64,000 bases of DNA, from assembly GCF_000730285.1 (NCBI RefSeq), contig NZ_CP007174.1, positions 806,001-870,000 of the forward strand, written 5' to 3'. This DNA comes from Candidatus Nitrososphaera evergladensis SR1. Its GTDB lineage: Archaea > Thermoproteota > Nitrososphaeria > Nitrososphaerales > Nitrososphaeraceae. The translations under genes were made by a program, and so were the position numbers. Below are positions 8,465 through 16,822 of the stretch, piece by piece (within the stretch, counting starts at the first letter, position 1; every line of letters begins with the position of its first letter). The notes beneath the pieces were generated by a model. It saw only the letters and a program-made list of their open reading frames with translations, ran no database searches and was not told the origin of the DNA.

Positions 8465-8539
8465 GGGGTCGTTGTCTAGCTTGGTTAGGATGCCAGCCTT
8501 GGGCGCTGGAGGTCGCTGGTTCGAATCCGGCCGACCCCA
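8465..8539 (+). tRNA. tRNA-Pro (anticodon UGG)
   Basis: Complete cloverleaf: acceptor arm GGGGTCG pairs with CGACCCC, discriminator A at 8539. The anticodon arm CCAGC-CTTGGGC-GCTGG gives anticodon TGG. The T arm contains GGTTCGAATCC. CCA is not encoded. The 3' 44 bases are the attachment site of the neighbouring integrated element, so the element restored the tRNA 3' end when it inserted. Confidence 0.95.
8496..8539 (+). repeat. attL: 44-bp direct repeat, tRNA-Pro 3' end
   Basis: Identical to 12844-12887 over all 44 bases; the flanking bases differ on both sides (8495/12843 and 8540/12888). It covers the anticodon loop through the discriminator base of tRNA-Pro, a usual target region for archaeal tyrosine recombinases. 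Confidence 0.95.
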
Positions 8540-8782
8540 CTCTCTCATTAATTCATCGTTACCAAGGTTGCTAACTATGCTAGCCAATAGGTCTACCTTT
8601 GTATTTAAAGAGGTCAACCTTTGGTCTACCTTCGCGCTGGCGGTCGCATCGCTAACTACAGCCACTTTGGCCCTTGCAAAGTCACGCAGAAATTGGCCTA
8701 AAGTCGAGTAGCCAGACTGCTCTAGTAGTCGATTTAATGCTATTAGGTCAGTCTGTGACAGCTTGGCGCTAATTACTGGCAT
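8540..8782 (-). pseudogene. int: Integrase N-terminal fragment, int(N)
   Basis: First 81 residues of the SSV-type integrase, from the ATG at 8782 up to the attL repeat. The sequence begins MPVISAKLSQTDLIALNRLL and looks like an alpha-helical N-terminal DNA-binding or oligomerisation region. In the integrated state the frame runs on into antisense tRNA sequence and stops at 8435, so this copy makes no recombinase. Its frame at the repeat boundary (codon starting at 8539) is the same as that of int(C) (codon starting at 12887). It overlaps the upstream 117-residue gene by 10 bases, so the two are translationally linked. Confidence 0.9.
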
Positions 8783-9126
8783 TTGTCAATTACCCTCGCT
8801 AATTCTGACTTGGCTTTGGCCTTGTCAATGTCGCCGGCCAGGTATCTCTCAATGACGCTACGAGCATACGGTAAGGCTGTGACTGCCCTAGCCTTGATCA
8901 AATTAGGGTCTTTAGCATCAATGTCTTTGACATTACCAAGTAACCGCCATTTCTGCTTGCCTGCGACTCTGGTGATGTGGTAAAGGTATTCTTGTTGGCC
9001 TAACTTCTTGACGGTGTACGCACCTTTGGCCTTTGTCTCTTGATGCATGATTAAGTCATCGGCGGCAAAGCCTTTAGATGACTTTGCAGTCTTGGGCTTG
9101 TGCGCGCCTGTGTCACGCTTACGCAT
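8773..9126 (-). CDS. Small basic protein of the integrated element, upstream of integrase
   Basis: 117 residues from the ATG at 9126 (a TTG at 9132 is also in frame). Lys/Arg-rich at the start (MRKRDTGAHKPKTAKSS) and with further basic residues throughout, no membrane segment. I recognise no family. It shares a promoter and a 10-base overlap with int(N), so it is a candidate recombination directionality factor or regulator acting with the integrase; this is inference from position and charge. A TATA-like CTTAAATAC and an overlapping palindrome precede it. Confidence 0.75.
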   Translation of the reverse strand: MRKRDTGAHKPKTAKSSKGFAADDLIMHQETKAKGAYTVKKLGQQEYLYHITRVAGKQKWRLLGNVKDIDAKDPNLIKARAVTALPYARSVIERYLAGDIDKAKAKSELARVIDKCQ

Positions 9127-9134
9127 GGTCAACC

Positions 9135-9150
9135 TTACTAAAGTTAGTAT
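9135..9150 (-). promoter_or_regulatory. Palindromic operator at the int-operon promoter
   Basis: TTACTAAAGTTAGTAT, a 16-base imperfect palindrome, abuts and partly overlaps the TATA-like element (minus strand CTTAAATAC, about 9147-9155) of the 117-residue gene and integrase operon. It matches the perfect palindrome at 11024-11039 in 14 of 16 positions, pointing to one regulator for both promoters. Confidence 0.6.
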
Positions 9151-9473
9151 TTAAGATTTACTAGGCACAGTAATGAAGTCGTCAACTTTCGTCTTGTAGA
9201 CCTTTGCAAAGTTAACGACGAAAGTCGTCGGCGGGCTAAATTTAAGAAAGATGGCCTTAGACATGAAATTTACACGTGATTAAAGACCAGCACTGCTAAT
9301 TTCGACTTGAAATTTGTAGGTAGGGGGGTAGTCATCGACGCCAAGCGACAAATGCTTTCGGCAATTTCGCGGCTTTGTACGACCTACAGTCTGTTAGGCT
9401 GTAGACTTGAATGTCGTTACAACGCAAATCGGTAGCGTCATTTGACAATGACTAGACTATCATACCCTTGCAG

Positions 9474-9597
9474 ATTTGTCGAGTTGTCTAATTGGCTTTC
9501 ACGTTCAATCTGAAAGAACAAGACAAATACGGCAAGCGTCGAATTTGTCTGATTCTTGCCGCTTGAGCACAAATTACAATTAGACAACTAGACAAAT
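9474..9597. repeat. Long inverted repeat, iteron-like motif
   Basis: Arms 9474-9493 and 9578-9597 match in 19 of 20 positions as inverted copies. A further direct copy lies at 11097-11114 in the same element. Smaller nested inverted repeats lie between the arms. Confidence 0.75.
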
Positions 9598-9695
9598 TGA
9601 TAGGGGTCTGCTCATACGATAGTGTGCACTTTCAATACCATGCTAGAACATGAATGCAGCCTCACGGCGTCGCCTCACTTCGCATGGCTTCGTTC

Positions 9696-9755
9696 GGCGA
9701 TTGCTTAGGTAAATACTAGGCTATGTTAGATGCGACATAGGCTAACGCAATCGCC
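9696..9755. repeat. Imperfect 60-base palindrome able to form a hairpin
   Basis: Outer arms GGCGATTGC.TTAG and CTAACGCAATCGCC pair, and inner arms TAGGCTATGT and ACATAGGCTA pair with one mismatch around a short loop. It could be a cruciform at an origin, a double-strand nicking site or a structured RNA. Confidence 0.55.
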
Positions 9756-9911
9756 TTACTTCGCATTTGTGATGACCTCATTAGGCTATTTCGGGCGGGC
9801 TGGTGCGTGGTTGTGTGTGCGTGTGCGTCTTATTGTAGGGTCTGGCCGGCACATGCTATACCCTGTGCGCTTTAACATAGACTTGCTATGTCTGAGTAGA
9901 CTTTGACAGTT

Positions 9912-10214
9912 CTATGACAAATTAGACTTCGGCACTTTAAGTATGTCAATCTCTGCAAAGAATCGTCTTCGCATGACAGCTAACATCTCTACCGCATGGT
10001 CACTGGTGAATACGTCTTCTGACTTGCCAGTAAAGTACAACAACCGTATTACCGTCGCAAATGCACAACCTAAGACGAAATCACGCCCGTTAGTTATCTT
10101 CATAGTGTCTTTGCCTATTTGGCTGGTAGCCAGCTCAGTATAGACCGGTGCAAGTGATACTGCTGTGTCTATCGCTTTGTCTAACTTGCCGCGGTCAGAA
10201 TCGCTAAGGGTCAT
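9912..10214 (-). CDS. Hypothetical 100-residue protein of the integrated element
   Basis: No recognised family. The sequence is predicted mainly alpha-helical, with a moderately hydrophobic stretch GCAFATVIRLLYFTG near residues 49-63 that looks like a buried helix rather than a membrane span. It lies 38 bases downstream of the PD-(D/E)XK-like gene in the same direction and may share its transcript. Confidence 0.65.
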   Translation of the reverse strand: MTLSDSDRGKLDKAIDTAVSLAPVYTELATSQIGKDTMKITNGRDFVLGCAFATVIRLLYFTGKSEDVFTSDHAVEMLAVMRRRFFAEIDILKVPKSNLS

Positions 10215-10252
10215 TTGGCTAGTCTATGCGAGCTTTCACTTAAGGTCTTTCA

Positions 10253-10987
10253 TTATGTTAATCGAGTCAGGCCGTACTTGCTTAGAGAATACAGAAAGTC
10301 GGCCACATCGTCTATCTTGTTAATCTCATCGTAGGGCCAGCTATACGCAGGGCTTGGTAGTCGTTTATTGATACGGCTCTTGTCGTTGGCACTGTTACCT
10401 TTGACCCAACCCTTAACTTCAAATACATAGTCGTTTGAAGTCGCACTAAGAGCCAGTATTACATCAGGTATTTCGTTGCGCTTTGCCCAGCGTTTGTACT
10501 GTGATTCATTAATTAGCAAGTCGTTGCAGTCAGCAGGCCCCGTCTTTACTTCGACCTTTAGGCCACTCGGGTAAAGTATGAAATCTGGCCCTAGCTTGTC
10601 TTCGGGTAGGTATAGCAACTGATGATCAAAGTTGTACCAAATCTTATGCTGATTTAAGACAGATAGAATGGCCATTTCACCCTTGATACCGCGTACTTTG
10701 TTTGCCAAATCGCGTTTAGGGTCTTTGGCTTTGTAATAACCGCCGCCTCGCTTGTCGAACCGTGCACTTTCAACTTTAGCAATGGCTTGATAGGCATTGT
10801 CTGCATCACTATCGATTTCTATAAGCCGACCAACGTAATTCTGTGCATCGTTTGGCGATACTTGTAGTAATTGTTCAATGGTCGATGAGGTCATCAGTAA
10901 ACGATGCTGTGACTGGCGAACGTCTTGTAGCTCTGGCCTAATGTGCTCTATTTCTCGCTTTGATTTGGTCTTCTTTCGTGCTTTCAC
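10253..10987 (-). CDS. PD-(D/E)XK nuclease-like protein of the integrated element
   Basis: 244 residues starting at a GTG. The C-terminal half shows the complete active-site pattern of the PD-(D/E)XK fold: Glu104 in IKGEMAIL, Asp135 in LGPDFILYP, Glu146 and Lys148 in LKVEVKTG, and Gln163 in INESQYKRW. The N-terminal 100 residues are Lys/Arg-rich and helical and may bind DNA. The role could be a restriction-type nuclease, a Holliday-junction nuclease or a replication/nicking enzyme for the circle. No methyltransferase is nearby, which argues against a classical restriction-modification system. The TATA-like CTTAAATAG and the palindrome 11024-11039 lie upstream. Confidence 0.8.
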   Translation of the reverse strand: MKARKKTKSKREIEHIRPELQDVRQSQHRLLMTSSTIEQLLQVSPNDAQNYVGRLIEIDSDADNAYQAIAKVESARFDKRGGGYYKAKDPKRDLANKVRGIKGEMAILSVLNQHKIWYNFDHQLLYLPEDKLGPDFILYPSGLKVEVKTGPADCNDLLINESQYKRWAKRNEIPDVILALSATSNDYVFEVKGWVKGNSANDKSRINKRLPSPAYSWPYDEINKIDDVADFLYSLSKYGLTRLT

Positions 10988-11023
10988 TATTACAAATTAA
11001 TAGCAGTAATCTCTATTTAAGTA

Positions 11024-11039
11024 TTACTAACGTTAGTAA
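11024..11039 (-). promoter_or_regulatory. Perfect 16-bp palindromic operator upstream of the nuclease-like gene
   Basis: TTACTAACGTTAGTAA is a perfect palindrome directly upstream of the TATA-like element (about 11013-11021, minus strand) of the gene starting at 10987. It is shared with the int-operon promoter (9135-9150). Confidence 0.65.
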
Positions 11040-11096
11040 CTACATTGAATTAGCATAACCATGCGAAATAGTGTCACTATCTGAAATACCTCATAG

Positions 11097-11114
11097 ATTT
11101 GTCTAGTTGTCTAA
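11097..11114 (+). repeat. Third copy of the iteron-like motif
   Basis: ATTTGTCTAGTTGTCTAA matches the consensus of the two arms at 9474-9493 and 9578-9597. It lies in the intergenic space between the winged-helix gene and the nuclease-like gene. A looser variant (TTGTCTTCATGTCTAATTG) follows at about 11164-11182. Confidence 0.6.
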
Positions 11115-11210
11115 ATGCCGCCACTGTCACCAGCAATGCATTTACGACATACGTGAAACGTGTTTGTCTTCATGTCTAATTGTCTATTACTCAAAGTAGC
11201 ATGGCATAAG

Positions 11211-11870
11211 TCATGCCGGCAGCCCATTTAACAGCGCGCCTATTCTTGCCACGATGGCAGCCCCTGCGGCCACGCCCTCAAGAATGTTCTTTGCGGTCAC
11301 AAGACACTCTTTGATTCTTTGACTCTTTGGTTTCGACGATTGCGCCTGCAAGGCCAATGTTTCAATTTCTGTATTTAATTCGCCTTTCTGCTCGGGCGTC
11401 AAGTCTGCAGTACTGGCCGTCTCTCTTAACATCGAAATAATGTCACGTAGCTCGACTAACTGCTCTTGGCTAATGCCAGAAGATTGAGTCAAAGTAGCGG
11501 TCTGACTAGAGTTAGCCCCACTTGCCTGAATTTGCGAGTTATTCATCTGGCCTACGTGAATAATGTTTACTGTGGCCAACGGTGCAAAGTGTTCTGTCGG
11601 TTGCTCTGGGTGCTCTAGGGCTTCTTCGACTTCTTTAATGCCAAAGTGTGTTATGCCTATGTTGCCACCAATACCCGTACCCGTGATTAGCCCTTCGCCT
11701 GTAAGGTATTGTACTATAATGTGGGTCAGTTCACTATGGCCTTCACCAAAGCCAAGCTCTTGGCCGACCTGCCACATGTTTACAGACGTGTGTTCATTGC
11801 CACACGTCAGCTCGTAAACTCGATGCATGAATTGTAGACGTTTCTTCTTCATTTCTGTTATAGAATACAA
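11211..11870 (-). CDS. Winged-helix protein with NSQIQ segment (element cargo)
   Basis: 219 residues (an in-frame ATG at 11852 is a possible shorter start). The first 80 residues look like a winged helix: helices around KRLQFMHRVYELTC and VGQELGFGEGHSELTHIIVQ, then a Gly-rich wing and FGIKEVEEALEHP. A middle beta-like stretch reads VNIIHVGQMNNSQIQASG, followed by a Ser/Thr/Gln-rich linker, a helix pair and a small hydrophobic C-terminal helix with Ala/Gly repeats. A DNA-binding or sensor role is suggested. It might be the regulator of the TTACTAA palindromes, but that is unproven. It is the first gene after int in the circular map. Confidence 0.7.
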   Translation of the reverse strand: MYSITEMKKKRLQFMHRVYELTCGNEHTSVNMWQVGQELGFGEGHSELTHIIVQYLTGEGLITGTGIGGNIGITHFGIKEVEEALEHPEQPTEHFAPLATVNIIHVGQMNNSQIQASGANSSQTATLTQSSGISQEQLVELRDIISMLRETASTADLTPEQKGELNTEIETLALQAQSSKPKSQRIKECLVTAKNILEGVAAGAAIVARIGALLNGLPA

Positions 11871-11993
11871 ATCAAGTACATTATGCTCTGTTTCTACTTA
11901 ACCTTTACGAACGACATCAACCGTAATCGAATCTACAATGTTACAATAAACCCGCATGTAATTTGCATCGTTTGACTGACCTGACTTTGTATC

Positions 11994-12887
11994 TTATGCT
12001 AGCTCTTTCTTCAGCTCTGGCAGCAGTCGAAGTATGCGCTTGGCTTGTTTGTCAAAGTCTGGCCGGTAATAGTGCTTACCAAAGATGCTAGCCGGCGTAC
12101 GGCCCTGCAACAGGTCTATAAATTCAGTCTCTATACCATGCTGTCGTAGGTAGGTCGCAAAGACCTTGCGACAGTATCGCATAGGCATTGGTATCTTACG
12201 GCGCTTTAGGTACGACCGTATGCTATGGTAACTATCACTCGATTGCTTTGCCAATGTTAGTAAATCGTCGTCTACTAGCGAGATGTATGCCTTCTTGCTT
12301 CGGCGAATGAATAGGTCTTTGTGCCTGTAGTGCTCTAGTATGCCGCGCTCTTCATTGTAATAGTCTTTAGTGGCTTGCTTGATCAGGCCAATGGCTTTGC
12401 ACGATTCGTCGGCTCGTAGGCCCAGCATGGTAGCGACGACAAGAGTATTAGCACAGTCGGCGGGTAATACCTTGATTGCCTGCTTAATACGGTCTAGCAT
12501 CTCGTTAATGTCTTCTTTCTCAAAGAAATTGAAATTGTCGTCAGTGTGCCGCCAGTGTAGCGCATGATTCTTGATGATTCTTTGCCATGTCTCATAGCAA
12601 CCGTTGAACTTTGCCAAGTGCGACAGTGCGCGCATGGTCTGCCTTTGCATGTCGTGCGACATCGCGAGTAATTCGCTAGCGTTACAACTGGTCAATACGT
12701 GCTGGTACTTGTTAGCGCGGGCGTGTAGGTAAGTAATGTCTTTGTCGCTTGTCAGCACCTTTCGCAAATAAGCATCAAAGCCGTCTAAAGTAATGGCAAT
12801 GGCCGGCCTTGTCGCTTGTTCGACGTCGTAATTGCTGTGCAAGGCCTTGGGCGCTGGAGGTCGCTGGTTCGAATCCGGCCGACCCCA
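11994..12887 (-). pseudogene. int: Integrase C-terminal fragment, int(C), SSV-type tyrosine recombinase
   Basis: Catalytic part of the integrase. The frame is open through attR (codon starting 12887) and continues in the same frame as int(N). Numbering from the TTG at 12842, the tyrosine-recombinase residues are Arg143 (GLRADES), Lys183/184 (IRRSKKAYIS), the RYCRKVFATYLRQHG box (Arg225, His235) and the nucleophile in GKHYYRP (Tyr258 or Tyr259). The 282-residue piece lacks the N-terminal 96 residues made from int(N) plus the repeat. In the integrated state it has no obvious own promoter, so it is probably silent until excision. Confidence 0.92.
12844..12887 (+). repeat. attR: 44-bp direct repeat
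   Basis: Second copy of the tRNA-Pro 3' segment, identical to 8496-8539. It marks the right end of the element; it lacks the tRNA 5' half and cannot fold as a tRNA. Confidence 0.95.
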
Positions 12888-13223
12888 TTGATGTATCTGA
12901 TGAAAAACTCGAAGATTTGTGGGCGTATTTTGTCAAGAGGCAGACGTATATGACAGAAGGCTCGACATCTGCTGGCACTTATTGTGCTCCAGAGATTTCC
13001 TAACGGAAAGGCGGTTACGCCTGCGCGTTTGTGAGAGATGAGCTATTAAAGTATTTTCAAAGTGAAAACCACGAATTCATGGTTGCAATGAATCAACAGC
13101 AGCCGGCTCCAAATAATATGGTGAGATACAGCAGCAGGTAAGCAATTTGTCGCAGGATCTTTTCAAGCTGCGGAGCAAGTATTGAAAACCCTGCAAAAGA
13201 AGGAATTACTGCTAATCTCTATT
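12888..13223. other. Gene-poor junction with possible coding remnants
   Basis: Host DNA beyond attR. A plus-strand open stretch up to 13003 reads VSDEKLEDLWAYFVKRQ and looks protein-like, but it has no own start and is joined upstream only to the repeat. A second short stretch near 13080-13200 also looks protein-like in two frames. Both may be remains of a gene broken by earlier integrations. No RNA gene is seen. Confidence 0.35.
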
Positions 13224-13928
13224 TCATGACTGGCCGAAAACCACCAGTGTGCCACCCCAAGCATATAACCAGCCTTCAGTGTTGCAACCGCCAAGCCTAG
13301 TTACCGGTATCAGCGTTAGAGAATGTTTGCCTTGGGAGATATCTTCCAGAGTTATGACCCCTGTACTAAGTGGAATGGGCGGAGATCTGCCTTCATAGCC
13401 TAACCAGTGGGTTACACCTACAGTTTCGCCATCGACTTTTACCACGACTCGAATATCTGCACAATGAAAAGCTGATGGAGTGGCATCGTCAGAAACGTCA
13501 TCGAAGAATTGGAATTGCAATGTCTGTGTCTCATTTACATATACAGTGTTTGTCACTGCCAAAGACGTTGGAGAAGGTCCTTCAGATTGGCTGCCTCCAC
13601 TTTTTGTAAATTGAATGACTTTCTGTGCATGAATTTCGTCAATACTTGCTGGGCAACATAGTGCTGCTATACTATCTTCCAAGCTGACTCCAGGTTGCTG
13701 GCCAATCAAAATAGGAACATCAGAAGAAGCATCTTCTACTGCTGCCGTCGTCATTGTTGTTGCGGCATTGGCATTCCTTTCAATCAGGAATGCAGGAGCC
13801 AGTAGTTGCAGTATCGGTATGCCTGCAGAAGACAAGAACAGTGAAGCACTTAGTATTGCCACTGTTGCAATCAATAGAGCCGTGATCATCTTCTGGCTTG
13901 AATAAGCTTTCTTGGAGTTGCCAGGCAT
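13224..13928 (-). CDS. Predicted secreted or membrane-anchored hypothetical protein
   Basis: About 234 residues from the ATG at 13928 (frame extends to a TTG at 13979). A basic start is followed by one hydrophobic segment, ALLIATVAILSASLFLSSAG, as a signal anchor. The rest is extracellular in character: a Cys pair (LCCPAS), Thr/Ser-rich parts and beta-strand patterns ending in HSLTLIPVTRLGG, suggesting an immunoglobulin-like or jelly-roll fold. No family is recognised. It sits between the integrated element and the amo genes. Confidence 0.7.
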   Translation of the reverse strand: MPGNSKKAYSSQKMITALLIATVAILSASLFLSSAGIPILQLLAPAFLIERNANAATTMTTAAVEDASSDVPILIGQQPGVSLEDSIAALCCPASIDEIHAQKVIQFTKSGGSQSEGPSPTSLAVTNTVYVNETQTLQFQFFDDVSDDATPSAFHCADIRVVVKVDGETVGVTHWLGYEGRSPPIPLSTGVITLEDISQGKHSLTLIPVTRLGGCNTEGWLYAWGGTLVVFGQS

Positions 13929-14133
13929 ATCGTAATTGCGGTAAGCTGAGTATAAGCATTGTTGACTATTGATCGGCAAGTAAGTGATGACTCTACTCTT
14001 TCTGCTTTGAACAGAGTTGGTTAGTCATAACATTGCGTTGTTACTGAGATGGACAAACTGTTCAGTGCTCTGCCGCTATCGTTGTACAAGCTTTTTCTTA
14101 ATGTTCTTCTCTCTTCTTCTTTTTTCTCTGCTG

Positions 14134-14265
14134 CTATCCAGATTCAGAGTGCCCTTCGTGCGCTTCTGGGCTGTGCCCTCTTTTTGCCCTTGTTGCAAAC
14201 AGCACCCCTACAAGGAACACAAAGATGCCTATGGTGATGGCGTACGTGCTCATTGCGTCGGCCAT
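14134..14265 (-). CDS. 43-residue single-helix membrane protein downstream of amoA
   Basis: ATG at 14265, stop TAG at 14134-14136. The product begins MADAMSTYAITIG, spans the membrane once (ITIGIFVFLVGVLFA), then has a positively charged ATRAKRG step and a His/Glu/Ser tail. It lies 115 bases downstream of amoA on the same strand; a T-rich run after amoA and a TATA-like TTTTTATATG about 85 bases before the ATG could give it its own transcript. It aligns without gaps over 29 residues with the protein at 62902-63066 (13 identical, most others conservative). Position and size make it a candidate accessory AMO subunit of the small single-helix kind; this is inference. Confidence 0.75.
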   Translation of the reverse strand: MADAMSTYAITIGIFVFLVGVLFATRAKRGHSPEAHEGHSESG

Positions 14266-14380
14266 GCTGTTAGGTCAGGCGAATGTCGAAGATAAAGTTG
14301 TCGATAAGCGACGAATCTGGAATACTGGAAAGCGTTCGCTAGAACATATAAAAATGAAAAGAAAAGGAAAAAGGGGAGGT

Positions 14381-15031
14381 TTAGTCCCACTTGCTCCACG
14401 CGGCCATCCATCTGTATGTCCACGTGTTAAGTTTTGCACCCAACGCAGTCATGGGTACTGTTAGCACTGCACTAGCGCCAGAACCTAGCGCCACAGGCGA
14501 GTTGTAAAACTTACCTACCTGAGGCTCTATAGGCGTCATGTATGCAGGCAGCGTCGGTCTCGGATACTTGAAGGCTACCTCAAGCGGGTCCCTGATGAGC
14601 AACAGGTTGACCATGTTGAACAGCGGAAGTGATAGGCCAACCAGCGTGCCGCCGATGATGATGACAGCGTGCTTGTTGCGTCTTGTCGCCCAGTACGTGA
14701 GGTCCAACAGCATTGCCGATGGGATCCACACTGGCACCACGATGAAGTCGTATGGATAGCCAAGTGCAAACCATGCACCCTTTGCAACCCATGTGTAGAT
14801 AGTCATGATTGTGGCGTAGTATGTGGCCGTGCCCGGAACGCCTGTGAACAACATGTAGTATACCGCACCCACAGCGAGCATCGTCGACTGTGACACGGAG
14901 AATACTACGAAGGATGTCCACATCCAGTCTGTGTAGAAGATGTAGTCTCCTGCGTTGATGGTTAGCAGCGTGCTGTTGACAGCAACGACTACTATGAATA
15001 GGTAGTGCGTTGTACGTCTAAGCCAGACCAT
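14381..15031 (-). CDS. amoA: Archaeal ammonia monooxygenase subunit A
   Basis: Membrane subunit of the copper enzyme that oxidises ammonia to hydroxylamine, the first step of energy gain in ammonia-oxidizing archaea. The full 216 residues are present with the usual archaeal start MVWLRRTTHYLFIVVVAVNS, the segments INAGDYIFYTDW and GYPYDFIVVPVWIP, and the end AAWSKWD. Several membrane helices are evident. The sequence is of the Nitrososphaera type in my judgement. amoX is 162 bases upstream; amoB and amoC are not in the window, which fits the dispersed amo genes of this lineage. A TATA-like element stands 23-31 bases before the ATG, so the message is probably nearly leaderless. Confidence 0.99.
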   Translation of the reverse strand: MVWLRRTTHYLFIVVVAVNSTLLTINAGDYIFYTDWMWTSFVVFSVSQSTMLAVGAVYYMLFTGVPGTATYYATIMTIYTWVAKGAWFALGYPYDFIVVPVWIPSAMLLDLTYWATRRNKHAVIIIGGTLVGLSLPLFNMVNLLLIRDPLEVAFKYPRPTLPAYMTPIEPQVGKFYNSPVALGSGASAVLTVPMTALGAKLNTWTYRWMAAWSKWD

Positions 15032-15053
15032 TGGAAACCATGACAGAATGCTT

Positions 15054-15062
15054 GTATTTAAG
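15054..15062 (-). promoter_or_regulatory. amoA promoter, TATA-like element
   Basis: CTTAAATAC on the minus strand, 23-31 bases before the amoA ATG, preceded by A-rich sequence. It matches the TTTAAATA-like boxes seen before many other genes here. Confidence 0.65.
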
Positions 15063-15148
15063 ATTTACCGTTGCCAAAAATCTTGTGCGAAATCCGCACA
15101 TATACCTTGATTTGTAGAAAACATGACACGAATAAAGCCTACCGTACA

Positions 15149-15160
15149 GGGGGGGGGGGG
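15149..15160. repeat. Homopolymer tract G12 between amoX and amoA
   Basis: Twelve consecutive G on the plus strand (C12 in the transcript direction), 33 bases after the amoX stop and about 118 bases before the amoA start. It is the only homopolymer of this length noticed in the window. Confidence 0.9.
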
Positions 15161-15193
15161 TAACGAAAAAGAAAAAGAGAAAAAAGGCTTTTC

Positions 15194-15502
15194 TTAAGCC
15201 CTTACCGTCTTCTCGCCCGTGATCTTCATGATGAAGAAGAATCCGAGGGCCTCGATTACGGTCAGAACGGACAGTGCGTATAATCCGCTAGGCAACGGGT
15301 ATGCCCATGGGTAGACTGTGACGCCTACGTAAACACCGCCCGCAGTTGCAGCCCAGCACAGCGCAAAGCCCAGAATGTAAATTCCCTTCATGTTTTCGAC
15401 TCTGCGGCCGATCATGCGTTCGATGTCGTCACGGCTTTCGCCGCCGCCTCCACCGCTACCACCCTTACGTCCACCACTTCCATATCCCTTTGGTAGAGTC
15501 AT
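15194..15502 (-). CDS. amoX: Archaeal ammonia monooxygenase-associated protein AmoX
   Basis: Small membrane protein that accompanies amoA in archaeal ammonia oxidizers and is regarded as an AMO subunit. From the ATG at 15502 it has 102 residues: a Gly/Ser-rich basic N-terminus, the segment DDIERMIGRRVENMKGIY, then two membrane helices (YILGFALCWAATAGGVYVGV and LYALSVLTVIEALGFFFIM). The frame extends to 15523, but a TATA-like TTTTTAAATTTT lies at 15527-15538, making the ATG at 15502 the sensible start. It is immediately upstream of amoA on the same strand. Confidence 0.95.
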   Translation of the reverse strand: MTLPKGYGSGGRKGGSGGGGGESRDDIERMIGRRVENMKGIYILGFALCWAATAGGVYVGVTVYPWAYPLPSGLYALSVLTVIEALGFFFIMKITGEKTVRA

Positions 15503-15526
15503 TCTGCTGTACAGATAGAGCATGCC

Positions 15527-15538
15527 TTTTTAAATTTT
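15527..15538 (-). promoter_or_regulatory. amoX promoter, TATA-like element
   Basis: AAAATTTAAAAA on the minus strand, 25-36 bases before the chosen amoX start. It rules out the upstream in-frame start at 15523 for a transcript from this promoter. Confidence 0.6.
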
Positions 15539-15649
15539 GCTGTCCACGGGTACGATAGGCATTTGCCTTCGCGGATTTCGCACGTAAAGAGAAAAAGATG
15601 AAAAAAGGAAAAGGAGGAGGGGAGGAGAGGTTGGTTGTTATGTTTGGCA

Positions 15650-16822
15650 CTAGAGTGCGCTATTTCTTCCGCCAAACATGCCTCCAATGCCTATGCCCTT
15701 GAATCTGGTCATGGCTACGATAAATGCGACTGCAATCGCGGCAATTATCGCTGCGCTTACTGGAAACTCGGGCACGACGACTACGCCAAAGTCGGCTTCC
15801 TCCGTGAACGCGCCAGTGTTGACCCCGCTCACTGAATGAAGGACTATGCTGATGCTGACCGGCCCTCCGTTGCCCATCTTGACCGTCTGGACTCCTGTCG
15901 AACTTTCGCCGGTAAAGGCATTCTTTTTGTCGTAGATGACCTTTCCGCCTTTCTCCGTCACCGTAAAGTCGTAGTTGACCCTCTCTAGCTTTTGCCCGTT
16001 ATTGTCTGCAAAGTCGACAGTGAATGTCGTGTTGCCGTTTGGCTGGATTTCTACCGGGTTCCAGCTGAGAGTCACGTCATAGGTTCCGCGTGCTGTAGAT
16101 TGTCTGAGCGGAGGCTGGGGGATCTCTTCGACCGACTTTGGAACTGGCGGCTGGCCTGTACCGGTGGCGAGCAAATCAAACTTGAACTGAATTGGCGGCT
16201 TGCCCGATGCCACTTCGACAAATGTCTCTGCCTTGATGGGGAACGGGAATTCGTTCTCTATCCATATTTTGTTGTCTACGCCCTTGTGCCATCCGACAAC
16301 TGTAGTGTCAAACGTGCCTGCTGGCACCGTGACCTTTTGCTGCCCTTGCGGCTTGAGTTCTTCTCCGCCTATTGCGGCAATCTTGCCCCACGAGCCGGCT
16401 TTGAGAGAAAGTGGCGCCGACACAGATGTGAACGCTTCGAGCCACTGGAGTGAGCGGCCATAGGCTCCGACAAACGGCCTCATGTCGTCGGGCACTTGTG
16501 ACCCTCCACCGAGAGCCGCAAGGTTATCGCCAAGCCTCAATGTCCCGTTGTAGACGTTGCCTTGGTATTCAACAAACGTCGGTGCTATCCATGCACCGCG
16601 ATCGTCCTTGCCCTTGAAGTATATTGTCATGTCAAACGGTGCATCATTGTTGGTGTCATATTCCTGTATTCTGTATTTTACATACGTGTCCTGTTTGGCG
16701 CCTTCGCCTACGTACCAGAGGTCGTCGGCCGCGTAAGCGCTCTTGACGCTCATAACACTGGCCAGGACTCCGAAAACCAGTACAGCAGCTATCGCCGAGA
16801 AGGCGAAATACCTGGACTCCAT
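15650..16822 (-). CDS. Secreted surface protein with PEFG-type C-terminal anchor
   Basis: 390 residues from the ATG at 16822 (the open frame reaches 16918 but adds an unrelated leader). A signal peptide (about residues 1-31, ending SVKSAYA) leads to a beta-rich extracellular part, and the end reads VVVPEFPVSAAIIAAIAVAF then a basic MTRFKG: a PEF motif, hydrophobic helix and positive tail, as in thaumarchaeal PEFG-CTERM proteins. The middle segment VTVPAGTFDTTVVG...PFPIKAETF recurs in the protein at 57165-57872. Role unknown; the gene precedes amoX on the same strand. Confidence 0.85.
   Translation of the reverse strand: MESRYFAFSAIAAVLVFGVLASVMSVKSAYAADDLWYVGEGAKQDTYVKYRIQEYDTNNDAPFDMTIYFKGKDDRGAWIAPTFVEYQGNVYNGTLRLGDNLAALGGGSQVPDDMRPFVGAYGRSLQWLEAFTSVSAPLSLKAGSWGKIAAIGGEELKPQGQQKVTVPAGTFDTTVVGWHKGVDNKIWIENEFPFPIKAETFVEVASGKPPIQFKFDLLATGTGQPPVPKSVEEIPQPPLRQSTARGTYDVTLSWNPVEIQPNGNTTFTVDFADNNGQKLERVNYDFTVTEKGGKVIYDKKNAFTGESSTGVQTVKMGNGGPVSISIVLHSVSGVNTGAFTEEADFGVVVVPEFPVSAAIIAAIAVAFIVAMTRFKGIGIGGMFGGRNSAL

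Follow-up and report, generated by a model that had tools for sequence, protein, structure and literature searches.

Integration Site and Boundaries of the Element

The sequence analyzed here, herein referred to as the window, is a 64-kb region (G000:C1:806001-870000) of the genome of Candidatus Nitrososphaera evergladensis SR1, an ammonia-oxidizing soil archaeon; the genome consists of a single contig of 2,954,373 bp. The subject of the analysis is a putative integrated element located in a tRNA gene of this window, with one part of an integrase gene (int) at each of its ends. Unless another locus is named, positions are those of the window.

A complete tRNA-Pro(TGG) gene, the integration target, is located on the forward strand at 8465..8540 (ARAGORN; Rfam RF00005, 59.6 bits at 8465-8539). 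Its part from the anticodon loop to the 3' end forms one copy of a 44-bp direct repeat, which was found in two identical copies, herein referred to as attachment (att) copies. Copy 1 is located at 8496..8539 and copy 2, a 3' fragment of tRNA-Pro, at 12844..12887. The spacing of the copies is 4,348 bp, so that both the perfect repeat and the size of about 4.35 kb reported in an earlier, sequence-only reading of this DNA are reproduced. The G+C content of the element is 46%; it is about 52% in the whole window and to the left of the element, and 49% to its right. A third att copy, which would mark a composite island, was not found in the window; shuffled sequences also give none.

The 44-bp target is identical in element-free tRNA-Pro genes of three related genomes (G042, G029, and G040) and has one mismatch in a fourth (G026). 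In G042, an N. viennensis-like genome of 2.53 Mb, a radical-SAM-type gene (96% identical protein) is found upstream, followed by the tRNA-Pro gene without the element, and synteny with the window picks up again at position 14084. The interval 12888-14083, between the right att copy and the conserved host DNA, carries a gene for a 251-aa secreted-type protein (13224-13979), relatives of which were found in two members of the genus at other genomic places.

The Split Integrase Gene

Both parts of the integrase gene are encoded on the reverse strand. The part adjoining the tRNA gene, int(N) at 8540..8782, provides the 81 integrase codons that precede att and encodes a ribbon-helix-helix (RHH)-like N-terminal domain. 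The part at the opposite end, int(C) at 11994..12887, contains 297 codons and a stop codon, the first 15 codons being contributed by the att copy, and encodes the catalytic domain of a tyrosine recombinase. The codon following int(N) begins at 8539, which is the same base of the repeat as 12887, where the reading of int(C) begins. Being joined through one repeat, the two parts form a single frame of 378 codons with no internal stop. The earlier reading, which had noted the equivalence of these two codon starts and a joined frame of about 378 residues, is thus exact on this point.

The joined integrase matches the Phage_integr_3 family (PF16795) with 31.6 bits, the curated cut-off being 27, as well as the PHROG integrase family phrog_5127 (E 5e-11) and the chains of SSV integrase in PDB. 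A direct comparison with SSV-type integrases, which had been recommended along with the sequence-only reading, was made by hhalign against the integrases of SSV2 and SSV-RH and also gave a match (97.1%, E 6.7e-11). All the recombinase residues claimed earlier are in place: R239, K279, R321, R344, and Y354 align with invariant columns of the family. At the position of R344, SSV integrases likewise have R, in the context Q/E-G-R.

The first 66 residues of the integrase form a domain that is common to int(N) of two other split elements, herein referred to as L031 and L034, and to two unsplit proteins, L103 and L104. The int(N) homologues sit at the int(N) ends of L031 and L034 and have 55-64% identity. 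Relatives with the joined N-terminal part, the lack of which would have counted against the earlier reading, are therefore present in both split and intact form. The unsplit proteins (L103 303-1505 and L104 1862-3067) are of the PF16795 type and about 400 aa long. The best PDB match of the domain is the ribbon-helix-helix of NikR, at a weak E-value of 0.018; judged by sequence, the domain is probably of this fold. Both halves of the integrase have an excess of third-position substitutions relative to L031, which indicates past constraint on the protein. Synonymous divergence (dS) from L031 is saturated, and hence no dN/dS ratio is given. The peptide encoded by att is a linker, which varies in sequence and length among the elements with the frame being kept; a variable att-encoded linker with the frame kept has likewise been reported for the pT26-2 family (PMC8371274).

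The joined frame could also be a coincidence, i.e., two unrelated open reading frames (ORFs) running into a duplicated piece of tRNA. Peptides encoded antisense to tRNA genes are indeed often open by chance, as seen from many short matches confined to tRNA, and the right frame is expected in one case of three. On the other hand, of 96-codon reads taken at random from the element, just 6.5% are free of stops, and L031 and L034 have homologous N and C halves at the same ends with other tRNAs, each pair joining in frame. The same joining restores the frame in nine other elements (see Suicidal-Integrase Elements in Nitrososphaeria). A coincidental joining is therefore rejected as extremely improbable.

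Suicidal-Integrase Elements in Nitrososphaeria

Members of the integrase family occur in 38 of the 400 genomes that were sampled across the class, most of them from the family of the host. In total, 13 elements were delimited by direct repeats containing a tRNA or a tRNA-like sequence, and the joined integrase frame is open in 10 of them. Three of these ten elements belong to the genome studied here: the 4,348-bp element in tRNA-Pro UGG (378 aa of joined integrase), L031 in tRNA-Pro CGG (15,744 bp, 365 aa), and L085, which carries a gene for MCM (11,115 bp, 404 aa). The others are L034 in tRNA-Arg(TCG) of genome G002 (3,450 bp, 348 aa), L086 (9,081 bp, 452 aa), and L087 in tRNA-Val (9,523 bp, 453 aa), as well as four elements from a second archaeal family, all in tRNA-Thr GGU: L105 (4,341 bp, 358 aa), L106 (3,780 bp, 364 aa), L107 (4,345 bp, 350 aa), and L108 (6,023 bp, 348 aa). 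The cargo of these last four elements differs and includes, by eye, a KAP-type NTPase-like protein in L105 and PD-(D/E)XK-like proteins in L107 and L108.

Suicidal integrases are thus common in mesophilic Nitrososphaeria. Besides the element studied here, five elements with open frames (L034 and L105-L108) are only 3.5-6.0 kb long and are located in tRNA-Arg or tRNA-Thr genes of two archaeal families. Such tiny elements therefore recur in the class, with at least six having intact frames, and many of the elements surveyed rank among the smallest integrative elements of the suicidal-integrase kind. Additionally, at 12 of 24 loci of the family, a strict tRNA T-loop motif precedes the conserved int(C) core by at most 330 nt, versus 4% of random windows; both sense and antisense orientations of the motif occur.

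In the integrase tree, the element studied here and L031 are sisters (support 100/98). The two SSV sequences form a long branch outside all thaumarchaeal integrases and, when they are used as the outgroup, L034 branches outside all the other thaumarchaeal integrases.

Proposed Mechanism of Integration and Excision

Taken together, the att repeats, the joined frame, the PF16795 and hhalign matches, the element-free sites of relatives, and the like splitting of L031 and L034 support the SSV-type integration into tRNA-Pro that had been proposed from the sequence. The locus very likely contains an integrated circular element of 4,348 bp with a suicidal (type I, SSV-type) tyrosine recombinase, which was split when the element entered the tRNA-Pro gene. 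In the circle, attP would have the sequence of the tRNA-Pro(UGG) 3' half and would lie inside int, between the RHH-like domain and the catalytic part. The joined enzyme would catalyze recombination between attP and the segment of the host tRNA-Pro gene that is identical to it. Such integration would leave the tRNA intact and separate int(N) and int(C) to opposite ends of the element, by which the enzyme would be switched off. This scheme relies on the anatomy of the locus together with the known behavior of the integrases of SSV1, SSV2, and pTN3 (PMC8371274). Excision would restore the int frame. It would probably require the arrival of an intact relative acting in trans, because both halves are expected to be inactive or poorly active alone. 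In known cases, a split integrase has little or no activity by itself, and in SSV2 and pTN3/TKV4 an intact related enzyme is known to bring about excision in trans (PMC8371274).

Four observations weigh against this interpretation. First, the 1.2 kb at 12888-14083 are absent from the empty site of G042, so that the right flank has no clean empty-site match. Second, box II of the integrase is R-Y-C-R (318-321), its first residue being R318 instead of the K found in SSV integrases (K-x-x-R); this first position is also variable among the relatives of the integrase. Third, three of the 13 delimited elements (L080, L082, and L088) do not reconstitute an integrase, which points to decay after integration as a common fate in the family. 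Fourth, no circular or intact copy of the element was found, and two scans of IMG/VR with the integrase gave one weak and distant match (L093).

The element could itself be a decaying fossil, for which integration was final and mobility has been lost. Its split integrase belongs to a type that is inactive or weak alone in the known cases cited above, and degenerate copies were found both in relatives and in the same genome, where a related int(C) with stops lies about 25 kb upstream (L033 7834-8647; G000:C1:788345-789137). In the element, however, the two int halves, the two 44-bp att copies, and the four accessory ORFs are all intact. Only the att copy within the complete tRNA gene is constrained by tRNA function, yet the two repeats are identical. 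The undiverged repeats and the intact ORFs argue for a recent arrival, and the fossil explanation is considered improbable, with perhaps a quarter of our belief.

Relation to Published Elements

The suicidal integrases described to date come from Sulfolobales and Thermococcales as well as from a few more archaea that are thermophiles or methanogens. The system has been tied to hyperthermophiles (PMC8371274). The mechanism is known from archaeal viruses, and one thaumarchaeal case has been published, the cryptic integrated element NitEve-E3, which encodes an SSV1-like split integrase and MCM (Krupovic et al., 2019; PMC6563490). NitEve-E3 was found in the same species as the element studied here, and in both a split SSV1-like integrase is present and viral genes were not recognized. 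The novelty implied by the sequence-only reading is lessened accordingly. In contrast to NitEve-E3, the 4.35-kb element does not encode MCM. In the host genome, MCM adjoins a split integrase only in the 11.1-kb element L085 (G000:2,080,055), which holds the second MCM gene of the genome and the integrase of which has a different type of N-terminal domain and belongs to another clade. NitEve-E3 most likely corresponds to this MCM-bearing element at 2.08 Mb, and its identity with the element in the window was rejected. The main text of PMC6563490 names no second split integrase in this species, and a prior listing of the 4.35-kb element in supplementary Table S2 of that paper is possible.

The location of att inside int and the splitting upon integration into the 3' half of a tRNA are shared with the integrases of SSV1 and SSV2 and with pSSVi, pXQ1, and XQ2 (PMC8371274). 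The PF16795 catalytic domain is common to the SSV integrases and the one analyzed here. Moreover, the annotations of SSV2 and SSV-RH include a nuclease gene close to int, and the element studied here has a nuclease-like gene by motif. The differences are in size, SSVs being viruses of about 15 kb and pSSVi a helper-dependent plasmid, as well as in the integrase: the SSV enzymes have another N-terminal domain, the K-x-x-R form of box II, and a deep branch in the tree. With its PF16795 domain, att inside int, and a single frame after joining, the integrase belongs to the suicidal type I class. It is not assigned to the SSV1 subfamily proper, since the signature R...K-x-x-R...Y of that subfamily (PMC8371274) is replaced by R239...R-Y-C-R(318-321)...Y354.

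The presence of an integrase, the precise integration into a tRNA gene, and the lack of a viral or conjugative signature agree with the description of thaumarchaeal cryptic integrated elements. In contrast, capsid or other structural genes, which define a fusellovirus or provirus, gave no PHROG or Pfam match. The tiny size is recurrent and no oddity. Another tiny thaumarchaeal integrated element with no known replication gene is the 2.6-kb NitUzo-E2 (PMC6563490), although its description, unlike the present one, contains no split integrase. Candidates for integrative vectors in ammonia-oxidizing archaea, where genetic tools are much needed (PMC6563490), could naturally be sought among elements of this kind.

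Accessory Genes and DNA Boxes

Four accessory ORFs, all on the reverse strand, were found between int(N) and int(C), and the functions given for them below are predictions. The first ORF (119 aa, 8773..9132) overlaps the start of int(N) by 10 nt, which suggests one shared transcript in the circle, and its putatively co-transcribed small product is confined to this element among the 70 genomes of the family compared. The second (100 aa, 9912..10214) has a homologue with 41% identity in L031, the sister element of 15.7 kb. The third (244 aa, 10253..10987) is predicted from its motif (GIKGE...GPDF...EVK) to encode a nuclease of the PD-(D/E)XK-like type. Its 42% identical homologue is encoded in L034, the 3.45-kb element of G002, and the PD-(D/E)XK-like pattern is retained in both of these close members. 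Searches of Pfam and PDB profiles with the 244-aa protein gave nothing convincing, and an AlphaFold2 model from the two sequences was uninformative (pLDDT 37.6), so the nuclease assignment is made by motif. Relatives of this protein were found neither in the plasmid and phage collections nor in a scan of IMG/VR.

The fourth ORF (219 aa, 11211..11870) encodes a winged-helix domain and a helical C-terminal part resembling the defense candidates AbiTii and PDC-M14B (PADLOC; AlphaFold2, pLDDT 74; Foldseek). Foldseek matches of the model are partial and of the winged helix-turn-helix (wHTH) type, none having an E-value <0.001. Relatives of the 219-aa protein are scattered, and one of them is encoded in an 8.7-kb element integrated in a tRNA-Gly gene; the protein is therefore likely cargo, possibly with a defense role. 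The tRNA-Gly element is found in G002 (L076 1950-10650), encodes a relative with 60% identity, and has no integrase of the family analyzed here.

A 0.78-kb non-coding stretch of the element contains an imperfect inverted repeat (9461..9610), formed by the 14-bp box TTTGTCNNNTTGTC at 9475-9488(+) and 9583-9596(-). Two more TTTGTC..TGTC boxes were found in direct orientation on the forward strand at 11098..11176, starting at 11098 and 11163. In total, the element has three exact copies of the box and one with a mismatch; the remainder of the window has two copies only, both with one mismatch. Three inverted pairs of TTTGTCNNNTTGTC are carried by the sister element L031 (6902, 11085, and 16315), and L034 and L085 have palindromic repeats of their own in place of these boxes. 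By their arrangement, the TTTGTCNNNTTGTC boxes are candidate operator or origin sites.

No capsid or other structural viral gene and no recognizable replication gene was found by PHROG and Pfam scans of the element proteins, as the sequence-only reading had anticipated. The element may nevertheless be a small autonomous, plasmid-like cryptic element, with the 219-aa wHTH protein, the 100-aa protein, or the 119-aa protein as initiator and the non-coding stretch 9133-9911 as origin. The sequence-only reading had raised both a minimal autonomous and a satellite element; the five other relatives of 3.5-6 kb and the 15.7-kb sister in the other tRNA-Pro gene sharpen this choice. The wHTH domain of the 219-aa protein and the inverted box pair in the non-coding stretch, along with the confinement of all exact copies in the window to the element, are consistent with this proposal. 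Additionally, a wHTH initiator has been proposed for NitUzo-E2 (PMC6563490). The 219-aa gene, however, is not a constant part of the tiny elements, being absent from L034, and both the occurrence of its homologues elsewhere, one of them in a different element in tRNA-Gly, and its defense-like C-terminal part speak against a role in replication. We consider autonomy a serious possibility, somewhat short of an even chance.

The Sister Element L031 and the Tiny Element L034

The closest integrase, also with the RHH-like N-terminal domain, is encoded by L031 (15.7 kb, G000:C1:1722624-1738420, or 1722595-1738420 for the interval L031 3096-18920). Its att is identical to that of the element studied here in 42 of 44 positions, and the 100-aa gene and the TTTGTCNNNTTGTC boxes are shared; in both elements, one inverted pair of boxes is located about 310 bp from this gene. 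L031 differs in being 3.6 times larger, in its other cargo, and in using another isoacceptor, tRNA-Pro(CGG). L034 (from G002, which matches the Nitrososphaeraceae metagenome-assembled genome Centralia_MAG_167) is likewise tiny, with a split integrase and the same N-terminal domain, and it is the only further place where a close homologue of the nuclease-like gene (244 aa) was found. It differs in its tRNA-Arg(TCG) target and in the absence of the 219-, 119-, and 100-aa genes. A 93-aa gene is common to L034 and L031.

The similarity to L031 would also fit a satellite lifestyle, in which an element without its own replication or transfer genes relies on a larger relative, such as L031, to supply an intact integrase and to spread, in the manner of pSSVi with SSV2. 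The sister integrase, with 62% identity in the C part, the nearly identical att, the shared 100-aa gene with its box pair, and the lack of recognized replication and capsid genes are all compatible with this explanation. However, L031 is itself split, and no capsid, terminase, or replication match was found among its scanned ORFs. Moreover, common descent suffices to explain the shared integrase and the operator-like boxes, and many archaeal plasmids have unrecognized initiators. A satellite lifestyle is regarded as less likely than not. The pair of sisters in two tRNA-Pro genes of one host makes both trans excision and target switching directly testable.

The C halves of the integrases of these sisters are 62% identical, against 40-43% otherwise, and the N halves are equidistant among the elements (61-66%). 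This contrast is suggestive of swapping of int(N) and int(C) between elements, but the N half is too short, and no such swapping is claimed. A broader proposal can be offered only tentatively: the recurrent and widespread class of 3.5-6 kb suicidal-integrase elements in ammonia-oxidizing and related Nitrososphaeria (tRNA-Pro, tRNA-Arg, and tRNA-Thr; two families) might depend, as satellites or hitch-hikers, on larger elements, which would have near-identical att and lend an intact integrase for excision, and the att linker might permit exchanges of int(N) and int(C) that change the target. The class itself is observed in the genomes; the dependence and the exchanges are conjectural.

Among the ORFs of L031, a 736-aa one (13446-15656) is tape-measure-like by eye and has no Pfam or PHROG match.

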